From a virus: DNA of 44,031 nt. A model generated the notes under the pieces. It was not told where the DNA came from. It was given only the letters and a program-made list of their open reading frames with translations, and ran no database searches. The stretch spans positions 1 to 44,031 of IMG/VR virus record IMGVR_UViG_3300031952_000035; one strand, given 5' to 3'. Each line of letters opens with the position of its first letter. Within the stretch, counting starts at the first letter, position 1. The position numbers and the translations under genes were made by a program. Below are positions 20,454 to 44,031 of this stretch, one piece after another.

Positions 20454-20485
20454 AAGGGCGGAAATAACCTCCGCCCTTACTTTTT
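20454..20485 (+). terminator. Intrinsic terminator of the late operon
   Basis: A 9-bp perfect stem (20454-20462 with 20470-20478, loop AATAACC) is followed by AC and a T-run at 20481-20485. It lies 31 bases after the last late gene. Strong rho-independent terminator. Confidence 0.9.
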
Positions 20486-20494
20486 CCGGGGGTA

Positions 20495-20520
20495 AAAGGA
20501 AAGGGCGCCCGTAGGCGCCC
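20495..20520 (-). terminator. Intrinsic terminator of the leftward early operon
   Basis: Read on the minus strand, a 7-bp GC-only stem (20520-20514 with 20509-20503, loop TACG) is followed by TTTCCTTTT. It lies just past the end of the gene ending at 20539 and faces the late terminator, so the two operons converge on a double stop. Confidence 0.8.
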
Positions 20521-20538
20521 CATCCCCTTCACATCCTT

Positions 20539-22407: not shown

Positions 22408-22436
22408 ACTATATCACGCCTATAAAGGAATGTCAA
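22408..22436 (-). promoter_or_regulatory. Sigma70 promoter for the RHH gene and the end of the early operon
   Basis: On the minus strand the -35 box is TTGACA (22436-22431), the spacer is 17 bp and the -10 box is TATAGT (22413-22408). The -35 box overlaps the end of the methyltransferase gene. It would fire leftward into the RHH, unknown and Sak4-like genes. Confidence 0.8.
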
Positions 22437-22870
22437 GAGGAATCTTTTGATTTAGCCAATCTATCATATAAAACGACATTCACTGTTGCCGCCAAATTCA
22501 TGCACCGTTTCGTTGGGATATAGACGACATCTCTAACCCATGATATTGTTTTTTCCCCAAGAGTTCCATCTTCTGGGCCAAAAATATAGAAGGCCCTCTC
22601 CGGGTGGGTGTATGATACAAGAGATCTTGCATTTGGCAGAAGTTCAACCGCTACAGGAACACAGTCTTTAGGAATTATTTCTTTCAAATCGTCTACTCTG
22701 AAAAATGGCATGTGTTTATAACTCTTAAAAGTATCCGTTCCATGATCGCCATATCTATTACCTGTTTGAGCCAAAAAGGCCGCACCATAAACATCACAAG
22801 CACGCAGGGCAGATCCTACGTTAGCAGGTGTCTTTGGACTTATCAATCCAACCGCGTAGTAACCTCTCAT
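22433..22870 (-). CDS. SPOUT-family RNA 2'-O-methyltransferase (TrmL/SpoU-like)
   Basis: I choose ATG 22870 (145 aa), preceded by AAGGGGGAAGAA; an upstream ATG would overlap the previous gene. All three SpoU motifs are present: NVGSALRACDVYGA at 17-30, FGPEDGTL at 97-104 and CMNLAATVNVVLYDR at 123-137. This is the trefoil-knot SAM-binding core, and the length is close to TrmL (about 157 aa), which methylates the tRNA wobble ribose. Target RNA is unknown. The gene is visibly more AT-rich than its neighbours, which suggests separate acquisition. SPOUT enzymes are rare in phages of this size. Confidence 0.85.
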   Translation of the reverse strand: MRGYYAVGLISPKTPANVGSALRACDVYGAAFLAQTGNRYGDHGTDTFKSYKHMPFFRVDDLKEIIPKDCVPVAVELLPNARSLVSYTHPERAFYIFGPEDGTLGEKTISWVRDVVYIPTKRCMNLAATVNVVLYDRLAKSKDSS

Positions 22871-22892
22871 TTCTTCCCCCTTTCCGCGGACG

Positions 22893-23096
22893 TTAAGAGC
22901 GATCTCCATCTTCCGCCTCCTTCATCCGCGCGATCTCCGCCTCCATCTCCTTGATCTTTCCCTGCAACACGTGCCCGCACTCCTCCAAATCCTTGATCCG
23001 TCGTAGAGCGTCGGCATGGCACGTACCGCAATAGACGTAATCACCATCGCTTATGTTCTTCCCGCAATCGTCGCAGTTGCTATTAAGGCTCAGCAT
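22893..23096 (-). CDS. Small zinc-finger/coiled-coil protein
   Basis: The 67 aa protein has GGAGGCG before its ATG. Residues 8-26 contain two Cys pairs (CDDC and CGTC) like a short zinc ribbon. Residues 30-62 form a Glu/Lys/Met-rich coiled coil. This resembles small phage DksA-like or RNAP-binding proteins in layout, but that is only a resemblance. The function is unknown. Confidence 0.65.
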   Translation of the reverse strand: MLSLNSNCDDCGKNISDGDYVYCGTCHADALRRIKDLEECGHVLQGKIKEMEAEIARMKEAEDGDRS

Positions 23097-23539: not shown

Positions 23540-24289
23540 TTACTTGTGGCTTGGATAGTTTTCCAGATCCGCCTTGAGGGTAATCACCGGGCGGACGGAC
23601 GCATCACGGAACGTCCGCACGTGCTTTGCGAATAGCCACCAGTCCACCTGCGCCTCCATGCCCGCATCGTAGTTCAGCTTCCCAACCTTGATCGCGTCCA
23701 CCCCGATCTCCGCCGACTTGCGGATTACCTCCAGAGCCTGCTCCGGGTATATCACCGGCTCTACGCTCACCCACGTGTAGAGGCCCAACGCCTTGGCCGC
23801 ACGCAACGCCTCGAACCGTTCTTCGATGGGCACCGCGCCCGGCTCCCACTTTTCCCGATCTGATTCGGAGGTTAGGGAGATTGTCACCCCAAATTCCGCG
23901 CGGTACTTAAAGAGGTAATCAGCATCCCACCTCAACGCCAGCTTGGGGTTTTTCGTCAGGATTACCGGGATCATCCCCGCCTCGCCCAACATTTGCAACG
24001 CATCCCCCGTGACATCCTCAACCCCTTTCTGATAGGGATCGCAGGTGAAGCACAACAACACCCTCTTGTCCTCCCCATACGCCCCCGCGCGCGCCCGCGC
24101 GCAGTCCCGAGACAGCGCCTGCAGGATACCCGCCCGCGGCCGGACGTCCCGCCCGAACTCCGCCCGGTCCCGGCGCAGTACTCGGGGCGCGTAGCAGTAC
24201 CGGCACCCGTGCCGACATCCCGTGTAAAGGTTGCACGCCAGGGGCGCGTACTCCAGCGCCCGGCCCTTCGGTTCGTAGATTGCTTTCAT
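23540..24289 (-). CDS. Radical SAM enzyme, spore-photoproduct-lyase-like
   Basis: The start is ATG 24289 (249 aa), preceded by GGAGGCGGA and coupled to the upstream gene by ATGA. The iron-sulfur motif is C-x3-C-x2-C at Cys25, Cys29 and Cys32 (CRHGCRYC), with YAPR following as in SPL-type and related radical SAM proteins. A TIM-barrel follows, with VILTKNPK, FGVTISLTSES and TWVSVEPVIYPEQA. SPL family members repair UV photoproducts or modify other substrates. The protein lacks an obvious SPL C-terminal domain, so repair is only one possibility; tRNA or small-molecule modification is another. It sits among small early genes. Confidence 0.8.
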   Translation of the reverse strand: MKAIYEPKGRALEYAPLACNLYTGCRHGCRYCYAPRVLRRDRAEFGRDVRPRAGILQALSRDCARARAGAYGEDKRVLLCFTCDPYQKGVEDVTGDALQMLGEAGMIPVILTKNPKLALRWDADYLFKYRAEFGVTISLTSESDREKWEPGAVPIEERFEALRAAKALGLYTWVSVEPVIYPEQALEVIRKSAEIGVDAIKVGKLNYDAGMEAQVDWWLFAKHVRTFRDASVRPVITLKADLENYPSHK

Positions 24290-24492
24290 TCCGCCTCCTT
24301 CAATTCTTCCAGAAACTGCTTCGCCTCCGCCGCCCATGCGCGGAGCTTGACGGCCACCTCTTGATTTTTGGTGTTATCGCAAGCTCCTCCTCCATAGACA
24401 GGACAATCCTGACAATTCAACCCTCTGCATCCGTATTCTCCACGCTCGAACATCTCCGCCATCCTAACTGCATCCTCTGGCGTGATCATCAT
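24286..24492 (-). CDS. Small Cys-rich protein
   Basis: This 68 aa protein starts at ATG 24492 (coupled by ATGA to the gene upstream) or at the next ATG; AGGAGG lies four bases before the first and seven before the second. It contains Cys residues in the pattern C-x4-C-x2-C-x7-C (GCRGLNCQDCPVYGGGAC), probably a metal site, and a helical C-terminus. It is translationally coupled to the radical SAM gene. No family recognised. Confidence 0.65.
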   Translation of the reverse strand: MMITPEDAVRMAEMFERGEYGCRGLNCQDCPVYGGGACDNTKNQEVAVKLRAWAAEAKQFLEELKEAE

Positions 24493-25004: not shown

Positions 25005-25205
25005 CTAACCACCGTCGCCGTAGCCGGAGCCGTAGCCGGAGCCGTAGCCGGAGCCGTAGCCGTAGCCGTAGCCGTCGCCGTAGCCGGAGCCGTAGCCGGA
25101 GCCGTAGCCGTAGCCGTAGCCGGAGCCGTAGCCGTAGCCGTAGCCGGAGCCGTAGCCGGAGCCGTAGCCGGAGCCGGAGCCGTAGCCGGAGCCTATATGT
25201 TCCAT
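25005..25205 (-). CDS. Gly/Tyr/Ser dipeptide-repeat protein
   Basis: The 66 aa protein begins MEHIGSGYGSG and is then almost wholly made of GS and GY dipeptides, with two GD (YGDGYG and the end). The start overlaps the last codons of the upstream gene; GGAGAAGG lies just before its ATG. Tyr appears every second or fourth residue. Such Gly/Tyr repeats are known from aromatic-rich phase-separating or adhesive proteins. Expression is plausible because the frame is open, coupled and in register with the neighbours. It could also be a non-coding repeat that happens to be open. Confidence 0.5.
   Translation of the reverse strand: MEHIGSGYGSGSGYGSGYGSGYGYGYGSGYGYGYGSGYGSGYGDGYGYGYGSGYGSGYGSGYGDGG
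25021..25196. repeat. Hexanucleotide tandem repeat
   Basis: About 29 units of GCCGTA or GCCGGA (one GCCGTC pair), read on the plus strand, fill this stretch. Units are multiples of three, so gain or loss of units keeps the minus-strand frame. It encodes the Gly/Ser/Tyr repeats of the gene 25005-25205. Confidence 0.95.
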
Positions 25206-27220: not shown

Positions 27221-28057
27221 CTAGTCCACCATCTTCAGCTTCCGTACTCTCCACTTCGCATCGTTCCCCGGCAGACCCGCGAACAGGATGTCCGCCGCCT
27301 CGAACTCCACGGTCAGCGGGATCAGCTTGTGATCCGGCTCGCACAGCCAGCACCATTCCGGACGATAACCGAGCCGGAGCACGTGCAGGCCCGGCCCGCA
27401 CTGCTGGTCGTCCGCCGTGCCCTCTGCCTCGACAATGGCCCCCCGTGGATACGCAATTGGCGTGCCACCGTCGAAGTTCGGGGACATCCGTGCTTTTGTG
27501 ACCCACTTTGTTGCCCGGATCATTCCGGAGTAAAATCCCCGGATCTGCTCCGCCAGGGCCAGAGACGTTACGCCATCGCCAAGGCTCACGTAGTCGCCCA
27601 GGCGCACGTCGTTGCCCAGGCGCACGTCGTTGCCCAGGCGCACGCCATCGCCAAGGCGCACGTCGTTGCCCAGGCTCACGTCGTTGCCCAGGCGCACGTC
27701 GTTGCCAAGGCTCACGCGGTCGCCAAGGCTCACGTCGTTGCCCAGGCTCACGTCGTTGCCCAGGCTCACGTCGTTGCCAAGGCTCACGCGGTCGCCAAGG
27801 CTCACGCGGTCGCCCAGGCTCACGTCGTTGCCCAGGCTCACGCGGTCGCCAAGGCTCACGCGGTCGCCCAGGCTCACGTCGTTGCCCAGGCGCACGTCGT
27901 CGCCAAGGCTCACGCGGTCGCCCAGGCGCACGCGGTCGCCAAGGCTCACGTAGTCGCCCAGGCGCACGTCGTTGCCCAGGATCACGTAGTTGCCGTTCGG
28001 CAATTTCCGCCAGCCGTTCTCATCCGGTGTGATCGCGTAGATTTCTTCAGCTTTCAT
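27221..28057 (-). CDS. Hexapeptide-repeat left-handed beta-helix protein
   Basis: This 278 aa protein has a 25-residue N-terminus, then 23 hexapeptides of the form L-G-[DN]-x-V-[RS] (residues about 26-165), exactly the [LIV]-[GAED]-x2-[STAV]-x signature of left-handed parallel beta-helices. Each three repeats form one coil, so about 7.7 coils. The C-terminal 110 residues form a separate domain with [16 protein letters not shown] and [10 protein letters not shown], which resembles domains fused to other repeat proteins in phages. No acyl-transferase catalytic residues were recognised. The acidic, regular helix could act as a protein or nucleic-acid mimic. It is coupled upstream by ATGA. Confidence 0.8.
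27570..27994. repeat. 18-bp tandem repeat coding for hexapeptides
   Basis: About 23 units of 18 bp with small variants (for example GCCCAGGCTCACG or GCCAAGGCTCACG followed by TCGTT, CGGTC or TAGTC on the plus strand). It codes for the L-G-x-x-V-x repeats on the minus strand. No unique spacers lie between units. Confidence 0.95.
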
Positions 28058-28548
28058 GGCTTCCTCCCCACCACCGACACCATCATCCTTTTCTTACCCC
28101 ACTCCCGCGCGGCCGCGCAGTCGGGCGTGTAGATGTCAATTACCCGCGGTTCCCCCCGCGCGGCCCACCGCTTTGCCGTCCGCTCCGGGATCGTGTCCCC
28201 GACGTACACGATCCTCTCTCCCTCCCCGCCCCCGGATAACAGGAGCACGGTTCCGCGCGGATACAAACCCCGCGAGACCGCCGCGATCCCCACCCCCGCA
28301 GGGAGACCGCTGGACGTCGTGCCGCTGTCACAATATGCAGTCACAAGGACGGGCTTGTCCGGCACTTGCTGATGACCCAGCCTGAGCACCTCGTCCTGCA
28401 ACGCCGACACGGTGTTGACGCAGGCTTGGACGCCAGCCTCGACGGTGGTGATGCGATCTGTCACACGGATGGACCACAGCGTCATCGTTATCAACCAGAT
28501 TGTTATTGCTGGCCCGAACAGGATCAGGATTGTTTCACGCCGATTCAT
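28054..28548 (-). CDS. Membrane-anchored 3D-domain protein
   Basis: The 164 aa protein has an N-terminal transmembrane helix (residues 7-27), a short coiled stretch, and from about residue 67 a double-psi beta-barrel of the 3D type: VLVTAYCDSG, LYPRGTVLLL, IVYVGDTIPE, VIDIYTPDCAAAREWGKKRMMVSVV. Three Asp residues of such domains match those seen in MltA/YocH-like and resuscitation-factor proteins, which act on peptidoglycan. A membrane-anchored version in the early operon may remodel the cell wall during infection. It is coupled to both neighbours by ATGA overlaps. Confidence 0.8.
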   Translation of the reverse strand: MNRRETILILFGPAITIWLITMTLWSIRVTDRITTVEAGVQACVNTVSALQDEVLRLGHQQVPDKPVLVTAYCDSGTTSSGLPAGVGIAAVSRGLYPRGTVLLLSGGGEGERIVYVGDTIPERTAKRWAARGEPRVIDIYTPDCAAAREWGKKRMMVSVVGRKP

Positions 28549-29078: not shown

Positions 29079-29605
29079 GCCTTGTCCTCCTTCAATGTCG
29101 GTTTAATCCTCGCCCGGATCATCGCGCATAGTGCGACCCCAGATGCCACGGCGGCCCTGGCGGCGGCCCCGGCGGCCCAGTAGGCGGCCCCGGCGGCCCC
29201 GGCGGCCCCGGCGGCCCAGTAGGCGGCCCCGGCGGCCCAGTAGGCGGCCCCGGCGGCGGCCCCGGCGGCCCCGGCGGCGGCCCCGGCGGCCCTGGCGGCG
29301 GCCCCGGCGGCGGCCCCGGCGGCCCCGGATTGCTCCGTGGGATCCGCCAGCCACCTACGGGCGGCCTCTATCGCCAGCCGGGGCCTGTCCTCTCCAGCGG
29401 GAACCAGATGCAGAACCGACTCGGCGAACTCGCACGCCAGGGCAACGTAATCCGCCTGCGTCGCCCATCCCTTTCGCTCCACCAGCCACAGCATCCACTG
29501 TGGGTTTTCCAAATGCTCCCATACCCAAGCGAGATCGTGCTCCCCCACCCAATCAACCCCATCCTGGCAGGCTTCTTTCTTGACAAGCCATTTGCGAAAT
29601 GTCAT
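29075..29605 (-). CDS. Imm5-like helical protein with Ala/Gly repeat
   Basis: I choose ATG 29605, six bases after AGGAGG (176 aa). Residues 40-90 contain ACEFAESVLHL...DRPRLAIEAARRWLAD, matching proteins annotated as putative immunity protein (Imm-5-like), whose C-terminal half is an AAR-rich helical repeat. Here the repeat (residues about 93-155) is Gly-Ala-Ala with GAAYWAAGAA and GAAARAA variants. The repeat is stretched and very GC-rich. The tail MIRARIKPTLKEDKA is charged. The name immunity is a family label; the true function is unknown. Confidence 0.6.
   Translation of the reverse strand: MTFRKWLVKKEACQDGVDWVGEHDLAWVWEHLENPQWMLWLVERKGWATQADYVALACEFAESVLHLVPAGEDRPRLAIEAARRWLADPTEQSGAAGAAAGAAARAAGAAAGAAGAAAGAAYWAAGAAYWAAGAAGAAGAAYWAAGAAARAAVASGVALCAMIRARIKPTLKEDKA
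29148..29324. repeat. GC-only tandem repeat in the Imm5-like gene
   Basis: A stretch made of GGCGGCCCC-type units, often interrupted by CAGTA (encoding Tyr-Trp). Units are multiples of three in the coding frame. GC content is near 90 percent. Confidence 0.9.
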
Positions 29606-31151: not shown

Positions 31152-31180
31152 ATCATACCATGCCAGTGATACAAAGTCAA
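31152..31180 (-). promoter_or_regulatory. Internal early sigma70 promoter
   Basis: On the minus strand -35 TTGACT (31180-31175), 17-bp spacer, -10 TATGAT (31157-31152). It lies in the gap between 31217 and 31124. Transcription would start near 31145, giving a short leader before the GTG start. Confidence 0.8.
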
Positions 31181-31216
31181 GAGAAATCCAACATCGGCCC
31201 CATGCCATGCATACGA

Positions 31217-32421: not shown

Positions 32422-32453
32422 TTTCTTATCCTCCTGTTGATCAGCCTGTGGTC

Positions 32454-32501
32454 TCCCCCGGTTTGCTATCCCCGGTTTGCCGCCCGCCTCCTGAAATCCT
32501 C
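32454..32501. repeat. 48-bp direct repeat, copy 1
   Basis: Exact match to 32800-32847. It covers the last codons (EDFRRRAANRG), stop and start of the gap after the gene 32466-32780. Confidence 0.95.
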
Positions 32502-32780: not shown

Positions 32781-32793
32781 CGCATCCTCCTTT

Positions 32794-32805
32794 GGGGTTT
32801 CCCCC
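32794..32805 (-). promoter_or_regulatory. GNRA-loop hairpin before a ribosome site (copy 1)
   Basis: Minus-strand GGGG-GAAA-CCCC, two bases before AAGGAGG and the ATG at 32780. The same hairpin precedes the genes at 33024 and 33347. Confidence 0.7.
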
Positions 32806-32847
32806 GGTTTGCTATCCCCGGTTTGCCGCCCGCCTCCTGAAATCCTC
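32800..32847. repeat. 48-bp direct repeat, copy 2
   Basis: Second copy of 32454-32501. It spans the last codons and stop of the gene 32812-33024 and part of the hairpin module. Confidence 0.95.
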
Positions 32848-33036: not shown

Positions 33037-33050
33037 GGGGGGTTTCCCCC
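33037..33050 (-). promoter_or_regulatory. GNRA-loop hairpin before a ribosome site (copy 2)
   Basis: Minus-strand GGGG-GAAA-CCCC (with one more C) directly adjoins AGGAGG of the gene starting at 33024. Confidence 0.7.
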
Positions 33051-33053
33051 GGT

Positions 33054-33347
33054 TTACAGTCCCGCCCTCGCCGCCTCCGCCCTCGCCGCCTCCGCCGCCG
33101 CCCACTCCTCCGCCTCCGCCCACTCCGCCCGCGCGATCGCCCACTCCGCCGCCGACGCTCTCGCCTCCTCCTCCGCCGCCCACTCCGCCCGCGCGATCGC
33201 CGCCGACCTCGCCGCGATCGCCGATCCTTCCGTCCTGTTCGTCCCGGCCAACCAGCTCACCGCCCACCGCTCCACCGATTTGATGCCGCAGTGGAGCGCG
33301 TAGTTTTTCACCGCCACGTTTGCCCGCCGCACCTTTTCCATTTCCAT
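33054..33347 (-). CDS. Ala/Glu/Trp helical-repeat protein
   Basis: Start ATG 33347 after AGGAGGAAACG (97 aa). The first 45 residues are ordinary (MEMEKVRRANVAVKNYALHCGIKSVERWAVSW). From residue 45 on, a degenerate helical repeat ARAEWA / AAEEEARASAAEWA dominates. This matches the AAR-type repeats of Imm5-like phage proteins, as in the gene 29075-29605. The plus-strand sequence here is CCGCC-rich. Function unknown. Confidence 0.65.
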   Translation of the reverse strand: MEMEKVRRANVAVKNYALHCGIKSVERWAVSWLAGTNRTEGSAIAARSAAIARAEWAAEEEARASAAEWAIARAEWAEAEEWAAAEAARAEAARAGL

Positions 33348-34742: not shown

Positions 34743-34771
34743 ATTATAGGAGATATAAGGATCAGAGTCAA
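34743..34771 (-). promoter_or_regulatory. Main leftward early promoter
   Basis: Minus strand: -35 TTGACT (34771-34766), 17-bp spacer, -10 TATAAT (34748-34743). It is nearly a perfect sigma70 consensus and lies 57 bases before the first early gene. The surrounding 34711-34912 gap holds this and the facing plus-strand promoter; no further gene is seen there. Confidence 0.9.
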
Positions 34772-34876
34772 GGAAAAAGAGAGAAAAACGTCAATAAATC
34801 GTGACGGCATATCTTGTGCCCCAAGCGGGAAAAAGGCCGAAATACCACAAGGGAAAGCGTACGGGGGAAAAAGGGC

Positions 34877-34905
34877 TTGACGCGCGAGAGGATCAGGAAT
34901 AGGAT
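34877..34905 (+). promoter_or_regulatory. Rightward promoter before the nuclease gene
   Basis: -35 TTGACG (34877-34882), 17-bp spacer, -10 TAGGAT (34900-34905). Expected +1 is at the A of the ATG at 34913, so the transcript would have no leader. Confidence 0.6.
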
Positions 34906-34912
34906 CCGGATC

Positions 34913-35167
34913 ATGGATAAGGAATATAAAAACAAGGCGGAAAGGGAGTTTGCAGAAACGGCGGAAAAGAACGGGTGGAGAGTAACAAAGCGCGGCTATC
35001 CTGATTTTATCTGCTATCGTGGTGATGATTTGATGCTCGTTGAAGTTAAGGGGAAGCCTGGAAGAAAATTAAAGAGAACGCAACACAGCTTGATGAGAAT
35101 CCTTAAAAGAAAATATGGCGTGAAATGCTTCCGCTGGACGCCTTCGGTAGGATTTTCGGATTACTGA
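34913..35167 (+). CDS. Small PD-(D/E)XK nuclease (VRR-NUC-like)
   Basis: The 84 aa protein has KRGYPDFICYRGDDLMLVEVKG: Pro30-Asp31 and Glu44-Val-Lys46 give the PD...E-x-K active site, preceded by Glu10 in an N-terminal helix. This is the minimal VRR-NUC/resolvase-like fold of phages. It would cut branched DNA or act in recombination. The promoter predicts a leaderless message starting at this ATG. It is one of only two plus-strand genes between the early and late regions. Confidence 0.75.
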   Translation: MDKEYKNKAEREFAETAEKNGWRVTKRGYPDFICYRGDDLMLVEVKGKPGRKLKRTQHSLMRILKRKYGVKCFRWTPSVGFSDY

Positions 35168-35213
35168 AAAGCGCGGGGAAAGAAACCTTAAGGAAGAAAG
35201 GGGTTCTTGGGGT

Positions 35214-35858
35214 ATGGGGAGCATGGATAATCGGTCCGAGGTTTTCGGGTTCAACGTCCGCGCCGATCTCGTAGACCGGATCAGGGAGATATGCGCGGAT
35301 CCCTATTTCGCGGCTAATCCGGGGGTATTCGATTTTGTCCGCGCGGTCAGGCGGGGGGAACGGGTAGGGGGAGCGTGGATCCGGAATATCGAAGGTAAAT
35401 CCGAGATAAACCCGAATGAGAGCAGAAAAGAGCAGGCGGAAAGGCGTAAAGTAGCGACGGAGAAGGGGAATCGTTGTTTATACCTCCCATGCGTTCAAGC
35501 GCTTACCCGCATCCTATCATCCGATCCGTTGTCGGCTTGCTACGACGCCGAGAGCTGGATCCTCCGAAAGCTGGTAACGCAAGCTTGCCAAGGGACTGGA
35601 CGGGATCGGGTCTCGCTGGAGTCAAGGCGGATTGTGCTATCAATAATCGGCCACAAGATGCCCGACAAGCAGACGATAAACGGTAGCGGGATCCCTGCAA
35701 TCCCCAAGGGATCCGCGCGGGGGCATATCAAAGAGGCAATCAAGCTCGCGCGGATGGGTTCGGGTAAGGGCCGCGCGCGGTCCGACCGGTCCGTTCCGTC
35801 TCCGGAAGAGCCCGGGAATAGCGTGGGAATAGGGGCGGATGAGGTAGCGGACGCCTAA
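35214..35858 (+). CDS. Unknown protein, second gene of the rightward pair
   Basis: A 214 aa product from ATG 35214 (or 35223). The first part (VFGFNVRADLVDRIREICADPYF) is helical; the middle is basic with KEQAERRKVATEKGNRC; the C-terminal half is Arg/Gly/Ser/Pro-rich and likely disordered. Basic composition suggests nucleic-acid binding. It may be co-transcribed with the nuclease. No family recognised. Confidence 0.55.
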   Translation: MGSMDNRSEVFGFNVRADLVDRIREICADPYFAANPGVFDFVRAVRRGERVGGAWIRNIEGKSEINPNESRKEQAERRKVATEKGNRCLYLPCVQALTRILSSDPLSACYDAESWILRKLVTQACQGTGRDRVSLESRRIVLSIIGHKMPDKQTINGSGIPAIPKGSARGHIKEAIKLARMGSGKGRARSDRSVPSPEEPGNSVGIGADEVADA

Positions 35859-37259: not shown

Positions 37260-37390
37260 CTTCGCGCCCGCGGCCTTTCTTCCAGGACCGACTTCTGGTA
37301 TTCCCGCTGGAGCCGGTAGACGGTTTCCCAATCCCCGCGGGCTTCCGCGCGGGCGATCCGGTAGAGCAGGAACTTCCGCCAGAGGCTCAT
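37250..37390 (-). CDS. Small basic protein (46 aa)
   Basis: ATG 37390 follows GGAGGGCGC and overlaps the helicase stop by ATGA. The protein is helical and basic (MSLWRKFLLYRIARAEARGD). It is coupled between the helicase and the methyltransferase genes. Function unknown. Confidence 0.65.
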   Translation of the reverse strand: MSLWRKFLLYRIARAEARGDWETVYRLQREYQKSVLEERPRARRWS

Positions 37391-38655
37391 GCGCCCTCCT
37401 CGATTTCGGTGAACCGCAGGAGCCGGGAGTTGAAGCTCATCTCCAGGGCCGCGACCGGCCCGTCGGAGTTCTTGTCCACGTAGAGGTATTGGAGCGAGTC
37501 GGGCTTGTCTGGATTCCCGTCGTGCCAAGGCCAATACATGAGTCCGACCACCTGGCTGAACTGCTCGATGCCGCCAGACCCGTAGAGTTGCCAGATATGG
37601 GGGCGCGGAAGCGCGGCTGTCTCGTGTTCCCGGATGAGCCGGATCTGCGAGCACAGGATCATCGCGCAGTCGTAATGCACGCCAAGCAGTTTCAGCTCCC
37701 GGACGGTCTTGGCGATCTCCATCGGTTCGTTCTGGCCCGCCCCGTGCTTGAGCAGTTGGAGCTGGTCCACGATCATCACGTCCGGCCGTCGCCGTGCGAG
37801 TTCGCGCTCGATGAGATTCGTGTCCGCCCGCTCCATGGCAGGCAGGAACAGCCGGTCATCCAACCCCAGGGAGCCGAATTCCGCCGCTCGCGTCCACTCG
37901 TCATCCGACAACGCCCCGGTCAGGAAGTGGTGCGCATTGATGCCCTGCTGGATGGCGATCATGCGTTTCACCAACTGCCGGGGATTCTGCTCCAGGCAGA
38001 TGAACACGACCTTCTTCCCCTGCTTCGCCACCGCGAGCGCGATGTTGCAACAGAACGCTGTCTTGCCGGTTGACGGCCTGCCCCCGATGGTGAACAGTTG
38101 CCCACGGCGCAACCCGCCGATCTTCTGGTCAAGCCGGGGAAAACCTGTGGATATCTCGATCCCGCTCGTCCTCACGGTCTCCATCTCGGTCATGGCATCC
38201 ACGATGTGCTCACTCATGACCTTGCCTTCCTCGGGCATGTAACCGTCCTGCCGGATCTTGTCCACCGTGGCGTAGAACCGCTTCGGGTCTGCGGTCAACT
38301 CTGGGTCCGTGCCCGCCCGCTGGATCTCCCGAAGTTCGAACTGCTCCGCCACCACCCTTGCATAATGCATCCCGTGATCCGCTACCGGCACGCGCTCAAG
38401 CAGTTCAATCACGTAGCTGGCACCACCCACTCCCTTGAGCTTTTCTTCCCGTCTGAGCGTGTTTGTTACCGTTACCACGTCCGCTCGTGACCCGCCGGTC
38501 ATGACGTCCCGGATGGCCCGGAAGATCTCCGAGTGCGCGGGCCTGTAAAAATGCTCTGGCCTGGTGAAACGCAATACGCGCTCGCACACCACGGCATCCA
38601 GCATCATGGCACCCAACAACGCCTGCTCAGCTTCAATCGCTTGGGGTTCCATCAC
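37387..38655 (-). CDS. DnaB-family replicative helicase
   Basis: The 422 aa protein has a DnaB N-terminal domain (EQALLGAMMLD at 10-20, HFYRPAHSEIF at 35-45), a linker, and the RecA-fold motor: Walker A GGRPSTGKT at 191-199, H1a-type ISTGFPRLDQKIGGL before it, Walker B VMIVDQLQLL with Asp297, and SQIRLIRE... as motif H3. The C-terminal part is shorter than in E. coli DnaB (471 aa). It follows the loader gene and is the main replication engine of the phage. Confidence 0.9.
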   Translation of the reverse strand: MMEPQAIEAEQALLGAMMLDAVVCERVLRFTRPEHFYRPAHSEIFRAIRDVMTGGSRADVVTVTNTLRREEKLKGVGGASYVIELLERVPVADHGMHYARVVAEQFELREIQRAGTDPELTADPKRFYATVDKIRQDGYMPEEGKVMSEHIVDAMTEMETVRTSGIEISTGFPRLDQKIGGLRRGQLFTIGGRPSTGKTAFCCNIALAVAKQGKKVVFICLEQNPRQLVKRMIAIQQGINAHHFLTGALSDDEWTRAAEFGSLGLDDRLFLPAMERADTNLIERELARRRPDVMIVDQLQLLKHGAGQNEPMEIAKTVRELKLLGVHYDCAMILCSQIRLIREHETAALPRPHIWQLYGSGGIEQFSQVVGLMYWPWHDGNPDKPDSLQYLYVDKNSDGPVAALEMSFNSRLLRFTEIEEGA

Positions 38656-39452
38656 GACTCCTTGCCGTAAATATGCTCATACTGGCTCTTCTCAACCGCC
38701 GGAGCTGGCTGAAACTTCGGGCGGTCCTGCGCCCGTGAAAGCCAGTTCGTGAGAAACCTCGGTCTGTTGACCTTGCGCTTCTCTGGATTCGCAACCTCCC
38801 AAGCGTTCGCCTTCCTGACTTCTGCTACCACGTCCACACCCGGGTACGCCTTCACCCACACCGGCAGGAGAGTTGCCCACCGGTCACACAGCTTTTGGTC
38901 TTCAGCGTAAAGTTCAAGGTCTGCAAGCTCAGGCGGAACGTCGGCTCGGAGGGATGGCTTTCCATCGCTCCGAGCAGTACCCTTCTTTTCTTGTTCTTCT
39001 GGGCCTCTTAGCCTCTTAGCTTCTAGGCCTCTATGCGTTACATGAGGCGTTACATTCGGCGTTACATCCACCGTTACATCTGGCGTTACATGAGCGTTAC
39101 ATTCAGCCTTCAACCTGAACGCCCGCACGCGATTCTTCAAGTTCTGTCGCTCTTTAACCTCTCTTTTCAACCTTCTGCATACGAGCGTTACATTCCCGTT
39201 ACCGTCATCGTAAAAATCGCATATTTTATTTGACGAAAACGATAATTTAATGCGCTCGGCAGTTGTAGAAGTGCATCCCCAGACCCGCGCCCACCCTTCC
39301 AAACTCTCGGTGATCTCGAACGTGCCGTCATGCCACATCACGCACAGGGTATTGATCCACGCGCCGCGCACTTCAATCGTTGCGCGTTGCAGGTTCATGT
39401 CCGAGAGCCAATCGCTGTACCAGAACTTCTCCCACTTCAGTCTGGAGTTCAT
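38652..39452 (-). CDS. Replication initiator/helicase-loader-like protein
   Basis: The 266 aa protein is coupled to both neighbours by ATGA. It has an N-terminal winged-helix-like domain (KFWYSDWLSDMNLQRATIEVRG..., residues 8-110) and a charged linker containing repeats of VTP or VTV (residues about 118-140). The C-terminal domain (residues 165-260) resembles DnaT/DnaD-type loader domains in character. The VTP repeat is encoded by the GTTACAT iterons of the likely origin. The arrangement copies that of lambda O: an initiator that carries its own binding sites. Confidence 0.75.
   Translation of the reverse strand: MNSRLKWEKFWYSDWLSDMNLQRATIEVRGAWINTLCVMWHDGTFEITESLEGWARVWGCTSTTAERIKLSFSSNKICDFYDDGNGNVTLVCRRLKREVKERQNLKNRVRAFRLKAECNAHVTPDVTVDVTPNVTPHVTHRGLEAKRLRGPEEQEKKGTARSDGKPSLRADVPPELADLELYAEDQKLCDRWATLLPVWVKAYPGVDVVAEVRKANAWEVANPEKRKVNRPRFLTNWLSRAQDRPKFQPAPAVEKSQYEHIYGKES
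39037..39250. other. Candidate replication origin: iterons plus AT-rich region
   Basis: Six GTTACAT copies start at 39037, 39049, 39061, 39073, 39085 and 39096, that is four steps of 12 bp and one of 11. A seventh is at 39187, followed by GTTACC at 39198. Next to it, 39208-39250 is AT-rich (TAAAAATCGCATATTTTATT and ATAATTTAAT), a good unwinding element. All of it lies inside the loader gene. Confidence 0.8.
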
Positions 39453-39608: not shown

Positions 39609-39956
39609 TTACCTCCCATGTCGGTCAGCCTTCGCCTTCTCGGCCATCATCTCGTCGGCCAGGCTATACGATAACTTTACGATATGGTTGAGATATCTTT
39701 GTTGCTCTGGAAAAGGACGACGGTTATCGTGCATTTTTATGTGGTACGCCAACAACTCCATCATCGCTTCACGGGCAAGGCTATCTCGCATTTTCTCGAT
39801 CTTCTTTTTTTCCTCTTCTTTTACCATTTGTTCTCGGTCAGCTCTATTCAACCTCACAAGGTTTTGGAAACAGTTGTGGCAAAATTCCTTTTTTGCATTG
39901 TCTATCACCGAAAGATCTACGGTAATCTCCTTTTTCCTCCGCTTGAACCAGTCCAT
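39609..39956 (-). CDS. Helical protein of unknown function
   Basis: The 115 aa protein starts seven bases after GGAGG. The N-terminus is basic (MDWFKRRKKEITVD), followed by long charged helices; CHNC at residues about 26-29 may bind metal. It is an early-operon gene just below the leader control region. Function unknown. Confidence 0.6.
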   Translation of the reverse strand: MDWFKRRKKEITVDLSVIDNAKKEFCHNCFQNLVRLNRADREQMVKEEEKKKIEKMRDSLAREAMMELLAYHIKMHDNRRPFPEQQRYLNHIVKLSYSLADEMMAEKAKADRHGR

Positions 39957-39968
39957 GCTTTATCCTCC

Positions 39969-40226
39969 TCAGTTTCCCCTTGACCCGCCGTGAATGGTCT
40001 CGTGCGCGAACAGCAACCCGGCCGCCACGCCGTCCATCAGGAGGCCATCCGCCCTTGCCGGGCAATCGGACGCCCTGGCGACCACCCACGGCATGATAAT
40101 CTGTTCCTGGATACCCTTGACGCCAAGGATCGCGACACGCAATATCTCCCGCTGAGTGGACCACTTATCGGGCGTCTCATGCTCCGGCGGGGTGAAATCC
40201 CATCGGTTCCCCTCTGAATCCTTCAC
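39969..40226 (-). CDS. First gene of the replication operon, unknown function
   Basis: I prefer GTG 40226 (85 aa), five bases after GGAGG; ATG 40238 contains that GGAGG and has no ribosome site of its own. The protein has DFTPPEHETPDKWSTQREIL, hydrophobic helices (VAILGVKGIQEQIIMPWVVA) and a Gly-rich end. It lies just below a terminator-like structure. Function unknown. Confidence 0.6.
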   Translation of the reverse strand: MKDSEGNRWDFTPPEHETPDKWSTQREILRVAILGVKGIQEQIIMPWVVARASDCPARADGLLMDGVAAGLLFAHETIHGGSRGN

Positions 40227-40389
40227 GGTATCCTCCATGTAAAAAAATGCCGGGGGCCTTGGGGCCGGTACGGGGGGAGGATAATCCCCGCGGGACCCGA
40301 CCCGTCCGGCCCCCGGCAAAATCTGGCTTCAGACAAAAAGAACGCCGGAGCTTCAGACCCCCGGCGCCAACCACCCGAACGGTTCCCAT
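40177..40389 (-). CDS. Possible leader ORF crossing the attenuator
   Basis: ATG 40389 with GGAGG ten bases upstream opens a 70 aa basic frame that runs through both hairpins and ends inside the first operon gene, in another frame. Its composition (Arg/Gly/Pro) reflects the GC-rich hairpins. It may be a leader peptide whose translation affects hairpin folding, or a chance frame. Confidence 0.3.
   Translation of the reverse strand: MGTVRVVGAGGLKLRRSFCLKPDFAGGRTGRVPRGLSSPRTGPKAPGIFLHGGYREGFRGEPMGFHPAGA
40241..40366 (-). promoter_or_regulatory. Attenuator-like leader with two terminator hairpins
   Basis: Read on the minus strand. The first hairpin pairs 40366-40361 with 40348-40343 and is followed by TTCTTTTT. 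The second pairs a 10-bp arm 40317-40308 with 40258-40249 and is followed by ATTTTTTT (40248-40241). The first arm and its 3' neighbour can instead pair with a CCGGCCCC segment inside the loop, which would break the terminator. It lies between the promoter at 40414 and the start of the operon. Confidence 0.65.
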
Positions 40390-40413
40390 GTTTGTCTATC
40401 CTCCACGTCCGGG

Positions 40414-40443
40414 ATCATACCACGTGAAACCCATCCATGTCAA
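40414..40443 (-). promoter_or_regulatory. Leftward promoter of the replication operon
   Basis: Minus strand: -35 TTGACA (40443-40438), 18-bp spacer, -10 TATGAT (40419-40414). Transcription would start near 40407 and pass through the two hairpins. Confidence 0.8.
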
Positions 40444-40525
40444 GAGAAATCTGCATTCACCGACGGAAAAAAACGCAAAACAGTGCAAAACGCAACGCCA
40501 GTATTGCAAGATGCAATTATTTTCC

Positions 40526-40554
40526 TTGACAGAATGGTCTGCATCGGCTATACT
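40526..40554 (+). promoter_or_regulatory. Late-operon promoter before the terminase gene
   Basis: -35 TTGACA (40526-40531), 17-bp spacer, -10 TATACT (40549-40554). Expected +1 near 40561. This places the terminase start downstream of it and divergent from the leftward promoter. Confidence 0.85.
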
Positions 40555-40576: not shown

Positions 40577-42364
40577 TTGCCAAACGACCTCCTTGAAATC
40601 GAAACAGGGCGTCTCAGCGATGAGGCGTTATTTGAAGAATATCTACGGGTGTCCCGCGAGCGATTTAAGACCGATCTGTTCTGGGCGGCCAAGAACGGAC
40701 TCGGCTACGACGAACTCGATGACGAACTCCACGGCGACTTCTGCAACCGTCTCCAGCGCATCGCTTTCCGGGCGTTGAAATGGCCGGAGATGTCGAAGGC
40801 AGAGCGCAAGGAAATGCTCTCCGACTACCGCTTCATGCTCTCTCTCCTTCCCCGCGGGCACGCCAAGACCACGTGCCTGATCGCGCTCGTGTGCGTGCTG
40901 ATCGCAAACGACTCCGAGATCCGCATCCTCATCAAGTCGCAACGGCTCGGCAACGTCACGAAAATCCTATCGGAGGCGAAATCGCACTTCATGGGCACCG
41001 CCAACAATTCTCATTTCCGGGAATGGTTCCCGGAGTTCTGCCCGAAGAATCCCGAGAACGACTTTGGCACCATGTACGAGATGACGGTGCCGAATCGAAA
41101 GAACCACGCCGTCAAGGAACCCACCGTGCTGATCTCGTCCTCGGAGCAATCGGTGGTGTCGAAGCATTTCTCCATCAAGCTCGACGACGATCTTGTGAAC
41201 GAGGAGAACACCCAGACGCCCGAGCAGATGGAACGGGCGGAAGACGTGTTCATCAAGGACCAGGCGTTGCTCGATCCCGGTGCGCCGGAACTTGTAACCG
41301 GAACGTGCTGGGACTACTCGGATATGCACGCGAGCATCCGCAACAACGAGGGCAAACGCTACTCGGAGTTCGACTGCTACATCCGGGAGATCAGCGAGGC
41401 CAAGTGCCGCAAGTGCGGAACGTGGTTCAAGGTCATGGACGCGCAAGAATGCCCGAAGTGCAAGTCAACAAGTTGGAAAGAACGCCCGATCTGGCCGTTC
41501 CGTTACACCATGAAATCCTACATGAAGGACGGCGTGCCGGACTCCTCGCTGTTTGAATTCAACGCCAAGGGCATGCTGAAGGAAAGCATCCCCGATCTCC
41601 GAAACCGCCTCGGCGAGTACATCTTCAACTGCCTCTACCGAAATCGCCCGCAGGATTCCGAGACGGCCTCGCTGAAATGGGATGCCGTGCGGATCGTCGA
41701 GGAGAACGACTACGCCGATATGGAGTTCTATCCCTTCATGACCATGGACACCGCCGGGGAGGACAAGGGCAAGAAGGGGAGCTTCTTCGTGATCTCCATC
41801 GTCTACGCTCTGCCGCCGGACGTCATGCTTGTCCGGGAGGTCATCCGGTTCCGCGGGACCGGCATGGAGTTCATCAACAAGGCCTACGATGCCTTCGAGC
41901 GCTACTCGCCCGTGCAGGTCGGGATGGAGAACACCAGTTACGGGATGGTCTACGAATACGACATCAAGAACGAGGGCCAGCGTCGGGGCCTGCACATGAA
42001 CGTCGAGCCTATCATCCGTCAGGGCGGGCCTTCCAAGACCATGCGAATCCGCCGACTCGCGCCCCGCGTGGAGCGCGGACGGCTGTGGGTTCTGAAGGAC
42101 TGCCCGGGATTTGACGCGTTCCGTGACGAGATGGTGCATTTCCCCAAGTACAAGTACCGGGACATCCTCGATACCATCACGGATGCGGAGCAGATGATCT
42201 TCGCGCCGGAACTCGTCAGCGCCATGACGGGCGAGGAACCCCTGGAGGACAAGAAACGCCGGGACAAGTCCATGGTTCAGCAGGCCCTCGCGGACCGCCT
42301 GGAGGGATTCGGAACAGAGGAAGGCGTGCAGATGGTCAACGAATGGCTGGGGAGCGAGGCATGA
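40577..42364 (+). CDS. terL: Terminase large subunit
   Basis: The open frame begins earlier, but the promoter puts +1 near 40561, so I choose TTG 40577 (595 aa), eight bases after AAGGGG. Walker A-like LPRGHAKTT is at 91-99, the Walker B-like SIKLDDDLV near 205, and a zinc-finger insert CRKCG...CPKC near 276-295. The nuclease domain has MDTAG (Asp near 391), GMENTS (Glu near 451) and DTITDAE (about 531-537), the RNase H-like triad. TerL cuts and pumps DNA into the capsid. No small terminase gene is recognised nearby. Confidence 0.9.
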   Translation: MPNDLLEIETGRLSDEALFEEYLRVSRERFKTDLFWAAKNGLGYDELDDELHGDFCNRLQRIAFRALKWPEMSKAERKEMLSDYRFMLSLLPRGHAKTTCLIALVCVLIANDSEIRILIKSQRLGNVTKILSEAKSHFMGTANNSHFREWFPEFCPKNPENDFGTMYEMTVPNRKNHAVKEPTVLISSSEQSVVSKHFSIKLDDDLVNEENTQTPEQMERAEDVFIKDQALLDPGAPELVTGTCWDYSDMHASIRNNEGKRYSEFDCYIREISEAKCRKCGTWFKVMDAQECPKCKSTSWKERPIWPFRYTMKSYMKDGVPDSSLFEFNAKGMLKESIPDLRNRLGEYIFNCLYRNRPQDSETASLKWDAVRIVEENDYADMEFYPFMTMDTAGEDKGKKGSFFVISIVYALPPDVMLVREVIRFRGTGMEFINKAYDAFERYSPVQVGMENTSYGMVYEYDIKNEGQRRGLHMNVEPIIRQGGPSKTMRIRRLAPRVERGRLWVLKDCPGFDAFRDEMVHFPKYKYRDILDTITDAEQMIFAPELVSAMTGEEPLEDKKRRDKSMVQQALADRLEGFGTEEGVQMVNEWLGSEA

Positions 42365-42867: not shown

Positions 42868-44031
42868 TGCCGACCGAAGCCAAGCAAGGCTACAAGCCGT
42901 CAGACCGGGACCGCGCGACCATCGCGCTTGCCGAGGAGCGCATCAAGGTCCAGGACGACGCGCGTGTGCCCTACGAAGCGCAGATGTTCTACAACTACGC
43001 GATGTTCCTCGGGCATCAGTGGCTGTTGTGGGACAAGAACATGAACGTGTTCCGGGTCGCCAAGGAGCCGTCGTGGCGCGTCCGGCTGGTATCGAACCGG
43101 ATATTCGATTGGGTCAAGAGCCGGGTGGCGAAGATCGTGAAGTCCCAACCGAAGATGCTCGTTGCGCCCGCCACGATGGAGGACCGGGATCGCTCATCCG
43201 CCAAGGTGGGCGAGAAGATCGTGACCGCCCAGGAGCGCCAGGACAACATGGCGCTCAAGCGCATCGAGTGGGCCTACTGGGCGTGCATATGCGGAACCGG
43301 GTGGGTCAAGGCGTTCTTTAACCCCGAGGCGGGACCGCTGGTGGACCCCCGCGAGGGAGAGACGCCGGAGAGCATGCCCGAAACCACGGAGAACATCGAC
43401 CTCGAAGCGGTGGTCAAGTCCGCGAAGATGTCCATCGAGCCGTTCCATCTCGGGGAGATCCAGACGGAGGTGCTGTCGCCATTTGAAGTCCGGTTCGACC
43501 AAATGGCATCCTGCATTGAGGACTGCCGGTGGATTGGCGTGATGCGCTACCGGAGTCTGGTGGACATCAAGGCCATGTGGCCCAAAAACGCAGACTACGT
43601 GGCGTCCGAGTCGATCCGCAGTGACAACACCTTCGAGGGCAAGCTCGCCAGCCTTGGCGGCACCTACTCGATGAACTTCAAGCCCTCGATGCAGAACGAA
43701 GAAGACATGCAGGGCGCCTACGTGCGGGAGATCTGGGAACGCGCGAGTGACGGCCACCCGAACGGCCGACTCTACATCACCGCGGGGGGCGTGCTGTTGG
43801 AGGACGGCGATAACCCCACCCCGATAGACAAGAAACGCACGGGGGACCTGCCGTTCTGTTATTTCCGCGAGACCATCAAGCCGGGAAGTTTCCCCGGCAT
43901 CAGCACGGTGGAGCAGTTGACGCCCTTGCAGGTCGAGTACAATAAGACGAACTCGCAAATCGTCGAGAGCAAGAACCTCATGGCTCGCCCAAAGATCCGC
44001 AAGCCGCGTCAAGCGATGATCCACAAGGATG
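42867..44031 (+). CDS. Portal protein, N-terminal part (continues at base 1)
   Basis: ATG 42867 overlaps the previous stop. The frame runs open to the window end and, after joining the 127-bp overlap, ends at 1020 (685 aa). The N-terminal 150 residues are helical with a Trp-rich segment (MFLGHQWLLWDKNMNVFRV), typical of P22/T7-type portals; the middle includes IEPFHLGEIQTEVLSPFEVRFDQ and a GVLLEDGDNP beta-turn. See the entry at 1-1020 for the C-terminus. Confidence 0.85.
   Translation, partial: MPTEAKQGYKPSDRDRATIALAEERIKVQDDARVPYEAQMFYNYAMFLGHQWLLWDKNMNVFRVAKEPSWRVRLVSNRIFDWVKSRVAKIVKSQPKMLVAPATMEDRDRSSAKVGEKIVTAQERQDNMALKRIEWAYWACICGTGWVKAFFNPEAGPLVDPREGETPESMPETTENIDLEAVVKSAKMSIEPFHLGEIQTEVLSPFEVRFDQMASCIEDCRWIGVMRYRSLVDIKAMWPKNADYVASESIRSDNTFEGKLASLGGTYSMNFKPSMQNEEDMQGAYVREIWERASDGHPNGRLYITAGGVLLEDGDNPTPIDKKRTGDLPFCYFRETIKPGSFPGISTVEQLTPLQVEYNKTNSQIVESKNLMARPKIRKPRQAMIHKD
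43905..44031. repeat. Terminal direct repeat, right copy
   Basis: Identical to 1-127. Removing one copy gives the circular genome of 43,904 bp. Confidence 0.95.

Follow-up and report, generated by a model that had tools for sequence, protein, structure and literature searches.

A candidate attenuator: two intrinsic terminators ahead of the replication genes of a phage

Between the promoter of a phage replication operon and the first gene of that operon lies a 167-nt leader, and within it fall both of the top-ranking terminators of the genome. The locus therefore raises the question of whether this phage ends most copies of the message before any gene has been read, and, if so, by what means the polymerase is at times allowed to pass.

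The replication operon and its promoter

The window, by which is meant the whole stretch of 44,031 nucleotides that was analysed, carries a 127-bp direct terminal repeat (positions 1-127 and 43905-44031) and probably represents a complete circular genome of ~43.9 kb. The promoters and genes around the leader are the following:

40580..42364, plus strand: terminase large subunit (PHROG 38, 1.9e-52; TTG start assumed)
40526..40554, plus strand: divergent promoter on the terminase side, 11/12 consensus match
40414..40443, minus strand: promoter TTGACA-18-TATGAT with a TG extended -10, 11/12 consensus matches
39969..40226, minus strand: gene 1, 85 aa, GTG start at 40226 with GGAGG 5 nt upstream
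39609..39956, minus strand: gene 2, 115 aa
38652..39452, minus strand: gene 3, 266 aa, replisome-organizer-like by weak matches
37387..38655, minus strand: DnaB-like replicative helicase (Pfam PF03796, 8.7e-43, and PF00772; PHROG 19)

The leftward order is thus gene 1, gene 2, gene 3, DnaB and a DNA methyltransferase. A coding signal is present in the frame of gene 1, and neither gene 1 nor gene 2 matched a known family. No lysogeny gene and no anti-repressor or AntQ-like gene was seen.

Transcription from the replication promoter is predicted to start at ~40407. The promoter and terminator criteria applied throughout are those of E. coli, from which those of the host may differ. Of two elements of this promoter region, GATTTCTCTTGAC and TGGTATGAT, the 44 kb contain exactly two copies each, the second being at the promoter at 31180 (31188-31152), which has the same arrangement and stands directly before a ribosome-binding site. 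The replication promoter is credible because it combines an 11/12 match with an upstream element common to another phage promoter. On the leftward strand from 40226 to 34771 no other strong promoter was found, and the replication genes therefore seem to depend on the promoter at 40443-40414. More generally, a pyrimidine-rich element directly precedes TTGAC in five strong promoters of the phage, namely those at 22408-22440, 31152-31188, 34743-34775 and 40414-40451, all on the minus strand, and that at 40522-40554 on the plus strand.

Several features elsewhere in the window were recorded as separate observations. Terminator-like hairpins on both strands occupy 20454-20521, where the two transcription arms converge. 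Within the leftward arm, 34814-35858 may form an island of rightward genes, with a locally positive GC skew and a plus-strand ORF resembling, by eye, a small PD-(D/E)XK-type nuclease. A SpoU-type RNA methylase gene occupies 22433-22909, where the G+C is low (0.48), and a Radical-SAM protein with a weak DUF5131 match lies at 23540-24337. Repeats include a tandem array with an 18-nt period over a hexapeptide-repeat protein (27498-28066), three short-period coding repeats (25012-25197, 12-nt, GCCGTAGCCGGA-like; 29120-29362, GGCGGCCCC-like; 33063-33251, GCCTCCGCC-like), and a 55-nt repeat present three times in the leftward arm (32447-32501, 32793-32847 and 33038-33092).

Two terminators ahead of gene 1

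Two hairpins followed by U-rich tracts lie between the replication promoter and gene 1, all on the minus strand:

40342..40367, minus strand: T1, compact intrinsic terminator hairpin, -17.1 kcal/mol, followed by a U-rich tract
40248..40318, minus strand: T2, 71-nt intrinsic terminator hairpin, -52.1 kcal/mol
40317-40308, minus strand: upstream arm A of T2
40258-40249, minus strand: downstream arm C of T2
40241..40247, minus strand: U7 tract of T2

The stem of T1 is formed by CGCCGGGG and CUCCGGCG around an 8-nt loop, with 9 pairs including the closing one, and is followed by UUCUUUUU; that of T2 is formed by UGCCGGGGGCC and GGCCCCCGGCA around a structured loop of 49 nt, and is followed by U7. 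T1 ranks first among the compact (<=40 nt) terminator hairpins of the window, where the next best reaches -14.5 kcal/mol. T2 ranks first among all terminator-like hairpins on both strands of the whole window, leading the runner-up (-31.2 kcal/mol) by 21 kcal/mol, and in three shuffled genomes the best such hairpin (-34.7 kcal/mol) was likewise weaker than T2; these fold energies were computed for 37 C. When the leader itself was shuffled with its dinucleotides preserved, two terminators of <= -17 kcal/mol arose in 10 of 600 sequences and a terminator of <= -50 kcal/mol in none of 600. The fold energy of the leader as a whole is only mildly unusual (z -1.86).

Two further ideas about the leader were considered and rejected. 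The 5' arms of T1 and T2 have the 8-mer GCCGGGGG in common, which might have been a basis for trp-like cross-pairings, but a repeated 8-mer occurs in 40% of shuffles. That the leader might have been inserted, with AC[G/A]TGGAGGATA repeats as its borders, is a notion based for the most part on similarity between ribosome sites.

The original prediction had described the stretch before the replication operon as an attenuator-like leader, with a good promoter at 40414-40443, two terminator-like hairpins with U-runs between it and the first gene, and a possible 70 aa leader ORF crossing both. As anatomy this description holds: the promoter has its 11/12 match and extended -10, T1 and T2 exceed chance expectation and are the two best terminators, and downstream of them come genes 1-2, the iteron-bearing replication protein and DnaB. 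The ORF is likewise present at 40389-40177, with a length that lies within chance.

On this layout, polymerase would start at ~40407 and meet T1 after ~70 nt and T2 after ~165 nt, in both cases before gene 1. Most copies of the message would then probably end there, yielding short leader RNAs, and genes 1-3, with the iterons that gene 3 contains, and DnaB would be carried solely by transcripts that read through. We infer that termination at T1 and T2 is both efficient and regulated, and it is plausible that the phage in this way decides when its replication genes are read. Also counted in favor of attenuation was the state of the other strong promoters (22436 minus, 31180 minus, 34771 minus and 40526 plus), whose leaders are short and in which no terminator was seen by eye. 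Judged from the sequence, promoter-proximal attenuation of the replication operon as such is likely.

Alternatively, T1 and T2 may simply leak, and serve to keep replication expression low and to block antisense readthrough from the late region. Since the terminal repeat points to a circular genome, leftward antisense transcripts could arrive at the leader, and an unregulated role agrees with the lack of a sensing element, of an Rfam match, of a significant alternative fold and of a coding signal in the leader. However, placing the genome's two best terminators behind a strong 11/12 extended promoter would be a wasteful route to low expression, and an insulator placed upstream of the promoter would serve equally. 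Unregulated leakage is thus rather unlikely.

A regulated alternative is processive antitermination, in which the polymerase, at or shortly after the promoter, would be modified by the early RNA or by a factor from phage or host such that it reads through both terminators; the terminators would then be the gate and the modification its key. A parallel is lambda pR'-tR', where a terminator downstream of a phage promoter gates a whole operon and where Q lets the polymerase pass the terminator that precedes the late genes (PMC4825925). The placement of terminators directly after the promoter matches the Q-dependent arrangement, T1 and T2 would gate the replication genes together, and terminators in series should be easier to overcome for a modified polymerase than for a local RNA switch. 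The present locus differs in that replication rather than late genes are gated, and no Q-family protein was found; Pfam and PHROG scans of most leftward ORFs, many of which have no family, revealed neither N, Q nor any other known antiterminator family. Nor does the leader resemble the put RNA of HK022, except in that both are structured RNAs with which an early phage transcript begins. The put RNA is a ~70-nt element of two stems that prevent termination, whereas here both hairpins carry the U-tracts of terminators and the description of put (PMC9378689) does not apply. Rfam likewise returned no match in the window at the gathering score, and a permissive threshold gave only chance-level matches on the other strand. 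Processive antitermination is accordingly a rather unlikely explanation, albeit one to be taken seriously.

Possible relief of termination: alternative pairing and the leader ORF

How T1 and T2 might be relieved locally was addressed by two proposals, the first of which concerns an alternative partner for the upstream arm of T2:

40306..40313, minus strand: GGGGCCGG, overlapping arm A, partner of segment B in the alternative fold
40261..40268, minus strand: segment B, CCGGCCCC, proposed antiterminator strand

The prediction held that the upstream arm of T2 can pair either with the CCGGCCCC segment or with the 3' arm of the terminator, forming a three-strand switch in which an A:B antiterminator competes with the A:C terminator to set readthrough, and named RNA folding with alternatives as a check. 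Such folding does bring out the alternative. GGGGCCGG and CCGGCCCC are perfectly complementary, and before arm C emerges the A:B helix is predicted with a probability of 1.00 (-35.8 kcal/mol). Moreover, the toehold from which C would oust B is at the stem base and is transcribed last, which makes a kinetic persistence of A:B conceivable; A:B pairing may delay T2 kinetically. Once arm C is out, however, the terminator is ahead by 11.3 kcal/mol. The specificity of the pairing was assessed with 1000 shuffles of the loop between A and C in which dinucleotides were kept: an equally long helix with A was obtained in 284, an equally long perfect Watson-Crick complement to A in 226, and an equally stable fold in 166. 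A GC-rich terminator loop of such composition will often offer an alternative partner, and A:B pairing was rejected as evidence for a switch, an equally good partner being found in 23-28% of the shuffled loops.

The pairing that had been proposed thus exists, and is no better than chance, and the switch built upon it was not supported. With 22.6-28.4% of composition-matched loops giving an equal alternative partner, with no Rfam structure, with nothing known that would bias the choice between A:B and A:C, and with T1 upstream to terminate transcripts anyway, a three-strand switch appears very improbable. A comparable arrangement is offered by the rimP-leader (PMC2965389), which likewise has tandem terminators in a leader, one of them with a possible antiterminator; in the phage the gene is different, there is no Rfam match, and the antiterminator is at chance level.

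The second proposal involves a translating ribosome and the leader ORF:

40397..40404, minus strand: GGAGGATA, Shine-Dalgarno-like, with 10 nt from GGAGG to the ATG at 40389
40177..40389, minus strand: leader ORF of 70 codons, crossing T1 and T2 and overlapping the start of gene 1

The 8-mer GGAGGATA also precedes gene 1 and gene 2, and GGAGGAT sites stand before several other leftward starts; GGAGG at a like spacing is found at 1.1% of plus-strand and 5.3% of minus-strand ATGs, real genes included. In footprint masking, T1 was lost with a ribosome at codons 7-19, and T2 with a ribosome at about codons 22-31 and 43-49. In the proposed mechanism, a ribosome would load at GGAGGATA, trail the polymerase through the 70-codon ORF and cover the arms of T2, so that the polymerase passes; T2 would then act mainly on uncoupled transcripts, and T1, close to the start codon, would set a basal stop.

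Attenuation in the E. coli pyrBI operon depends on polymerase pausing. The pyrL leader of that operon resembles the phage leader in having an ORF, equipped with a ribosome-binding site, that extends over an intrinsic terminator located ahead of the first structural gene, and ribosomes suppress its terminator (PMC5021804). The phage leader differs from it in possessing two terminators, in the overlap of its ORF with gene 1, and in having neither a pyrimidine signal nor a coding signature in the ORF. It has also been found that terminators lying within 100 bp of the beginning of a coding region work and that those in its latter part are repressed (PMC4824070); relative to the leader ATG, T1 spans 23-46 nt and T2 ends at ~141 nt.

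Several observations were counted against coupling. The ORF lacks a coding signature, its GC3 being 0.56 as compared with 0.74 in the genes and its frame score no better than off-frame, although leader peptides need not show a codon signature. Its length was reached in 18.5% of shuffles, the 10-nt spacing of the ribosome site is long, and T2 may be so stable that even partial exposure leads to termination. A signal of the trp or his type is not apparent either, in that no run of a single regulatory residue was seen by eye in the 70-aa sequence. Nevertheless, owing to the GGAGGATA start, the footprint masking and the precedents of pyrL and of terminators within coding regions, pyrBI-like ribosome coupling is our preferred guess, held with low confidence, as to how termination is relieved, with processive antitermination as its main rival. 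Attenuation and ribosome coupling taken jointly form a tentative reading, to which we give somewhat less than an even chance.

Complementarity to gene 1 and transcription across the iterons

A further feature of the leader was found post hoc, not having been predicted, and links T1 to the beginning of gene 1:

40343..40382, minus strand: left arm of a long imperfect inverted repeat, leader nt 26-65, overlapping T1
40149..40189, minus strand: right arm of the same repeat, inside gene 1, nt 219-259

In the repeat search, T1 and gene 1 were complementary at 18 of 21 positions. When progressively longer transcripts were folded, the T1 hairpin gave way from ~240 nt onward to pairing between leader nt 26-65 and gene 1 nt 219-259, which in the readthrough RNA at 300 nt is favored over T1 by 12.3 kcal/mol. 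The arm within gene 1 is transcribed after both terminators, and therefore cannot affect termination in cis. A leader RNA ended at T1 could, however, bind in trans to gene 1 mRNA at its start, and an antisense role of this kind, controlling the translation or termination of its own operon, is possible.

Precedents for the pairing of a leader RNA in trans are provided by phage P4 and by IsrK (PMC4825925). The P4 leader with its CI RNA is similar both in the premature termination within the leader of a phage replication operon and in the complementarity of leader RNA to another part of the same transcript, here between the T1 region and the start of gene 1. It differs in that termination in P4 needs an RNA processed from the leader, whereas the terminators described here are strong and intrinsic; in addition, the complementary stretch here is the beginning of gene 1, and a lysogeny gene was not seen. 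Gifsy-1 IsrK offers the same succession of a promoter, a short RNA that ends at an intrinsic terminator, and a readthrough mRNA able to pair with that short RNA; in the phage the pairing is a prediction only, and no anti-repressor or AntQ-like gene was seen.

The displacement of T1 was matched in none of 150 shuffles of gene 1 and in none of 751 native 116-nt windows of the genome, which speaks for the antisense reading. Against it stand the discovery of the complementarity after looking, the plain duplex energy, which puts the gene 1 site no higher than about fifth among the leftward windows, the site's lack of any say over termination in cis, and the want of relatives for comparison. Scans of IMG/VR with gene 1, gene 3, DnaB, TerL, MCP and the AAA protein revealed no close relative, nor did contig scans with TerL and with the MCP alignment or phage blastn and tblastn searches, and across these scans the best relatives reached ~32% identity or less over full proteins, where there were any. 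In two relatives by MCP and TerL (L008 and L012), a gene lies upstream of TerL on the same strand and no comparable leader is present; a scan of viral contigs for the promoter motif returned 22 matches, with no protein similarity to the phage and no like leader. We accordingly regard a regulatory pairing of the T1-ended RNA with gene 1 mRNA as quite improbable.

Attenuation in the leader, by whatever means it is relieved, would bear on more than the replication proteins, for a candidate origin lies on the same transcript, 1.1 kb downstream of the leader:

39036..39193, minus strand: seven ATGTAACG iterons inside gene 3, candidate replication origin

Six of the iterons are arranged at a spacing of 11-12 nt in 39036-39102 and one lies at 39186-39193. 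The array contains 7 of the 8 copies of ATGTAACG in the window, in the whole of which 0.46 would be expected by chance. The iterons of lambda also sit within a replication gene, the O gene, as those of the phage sit within gene 3. The lambda O protein binds the origin iterons, and transcription through the origin region is needed for efficient initiation even when the proteins are supplied (PMC3985674). If the analogy with lambda holds, the leader would gate both the replication proteins and transcription across the origin.

If transcripts do stop here, then a 170-nt leader gates the replication protein, DnaB and transcription over the iteron array, and, as the lambda origin needs transcription, the same stop could control both the proteins and the origin. 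The antisense proposal would extend this further: a T1-ended RNA acting in trans as an antisense regulator would let the level of aborted leaders feed back on the replication genes and on transcription of the iteron origin, and this circuit, which we likewise hold to be improbable, would be a P4- or IsrK-like RNA circuit in a phage without close known relatives. Attenuation itself, if true, would provide a compact and testable model of how termination may time replication in an isolated phage lineage.
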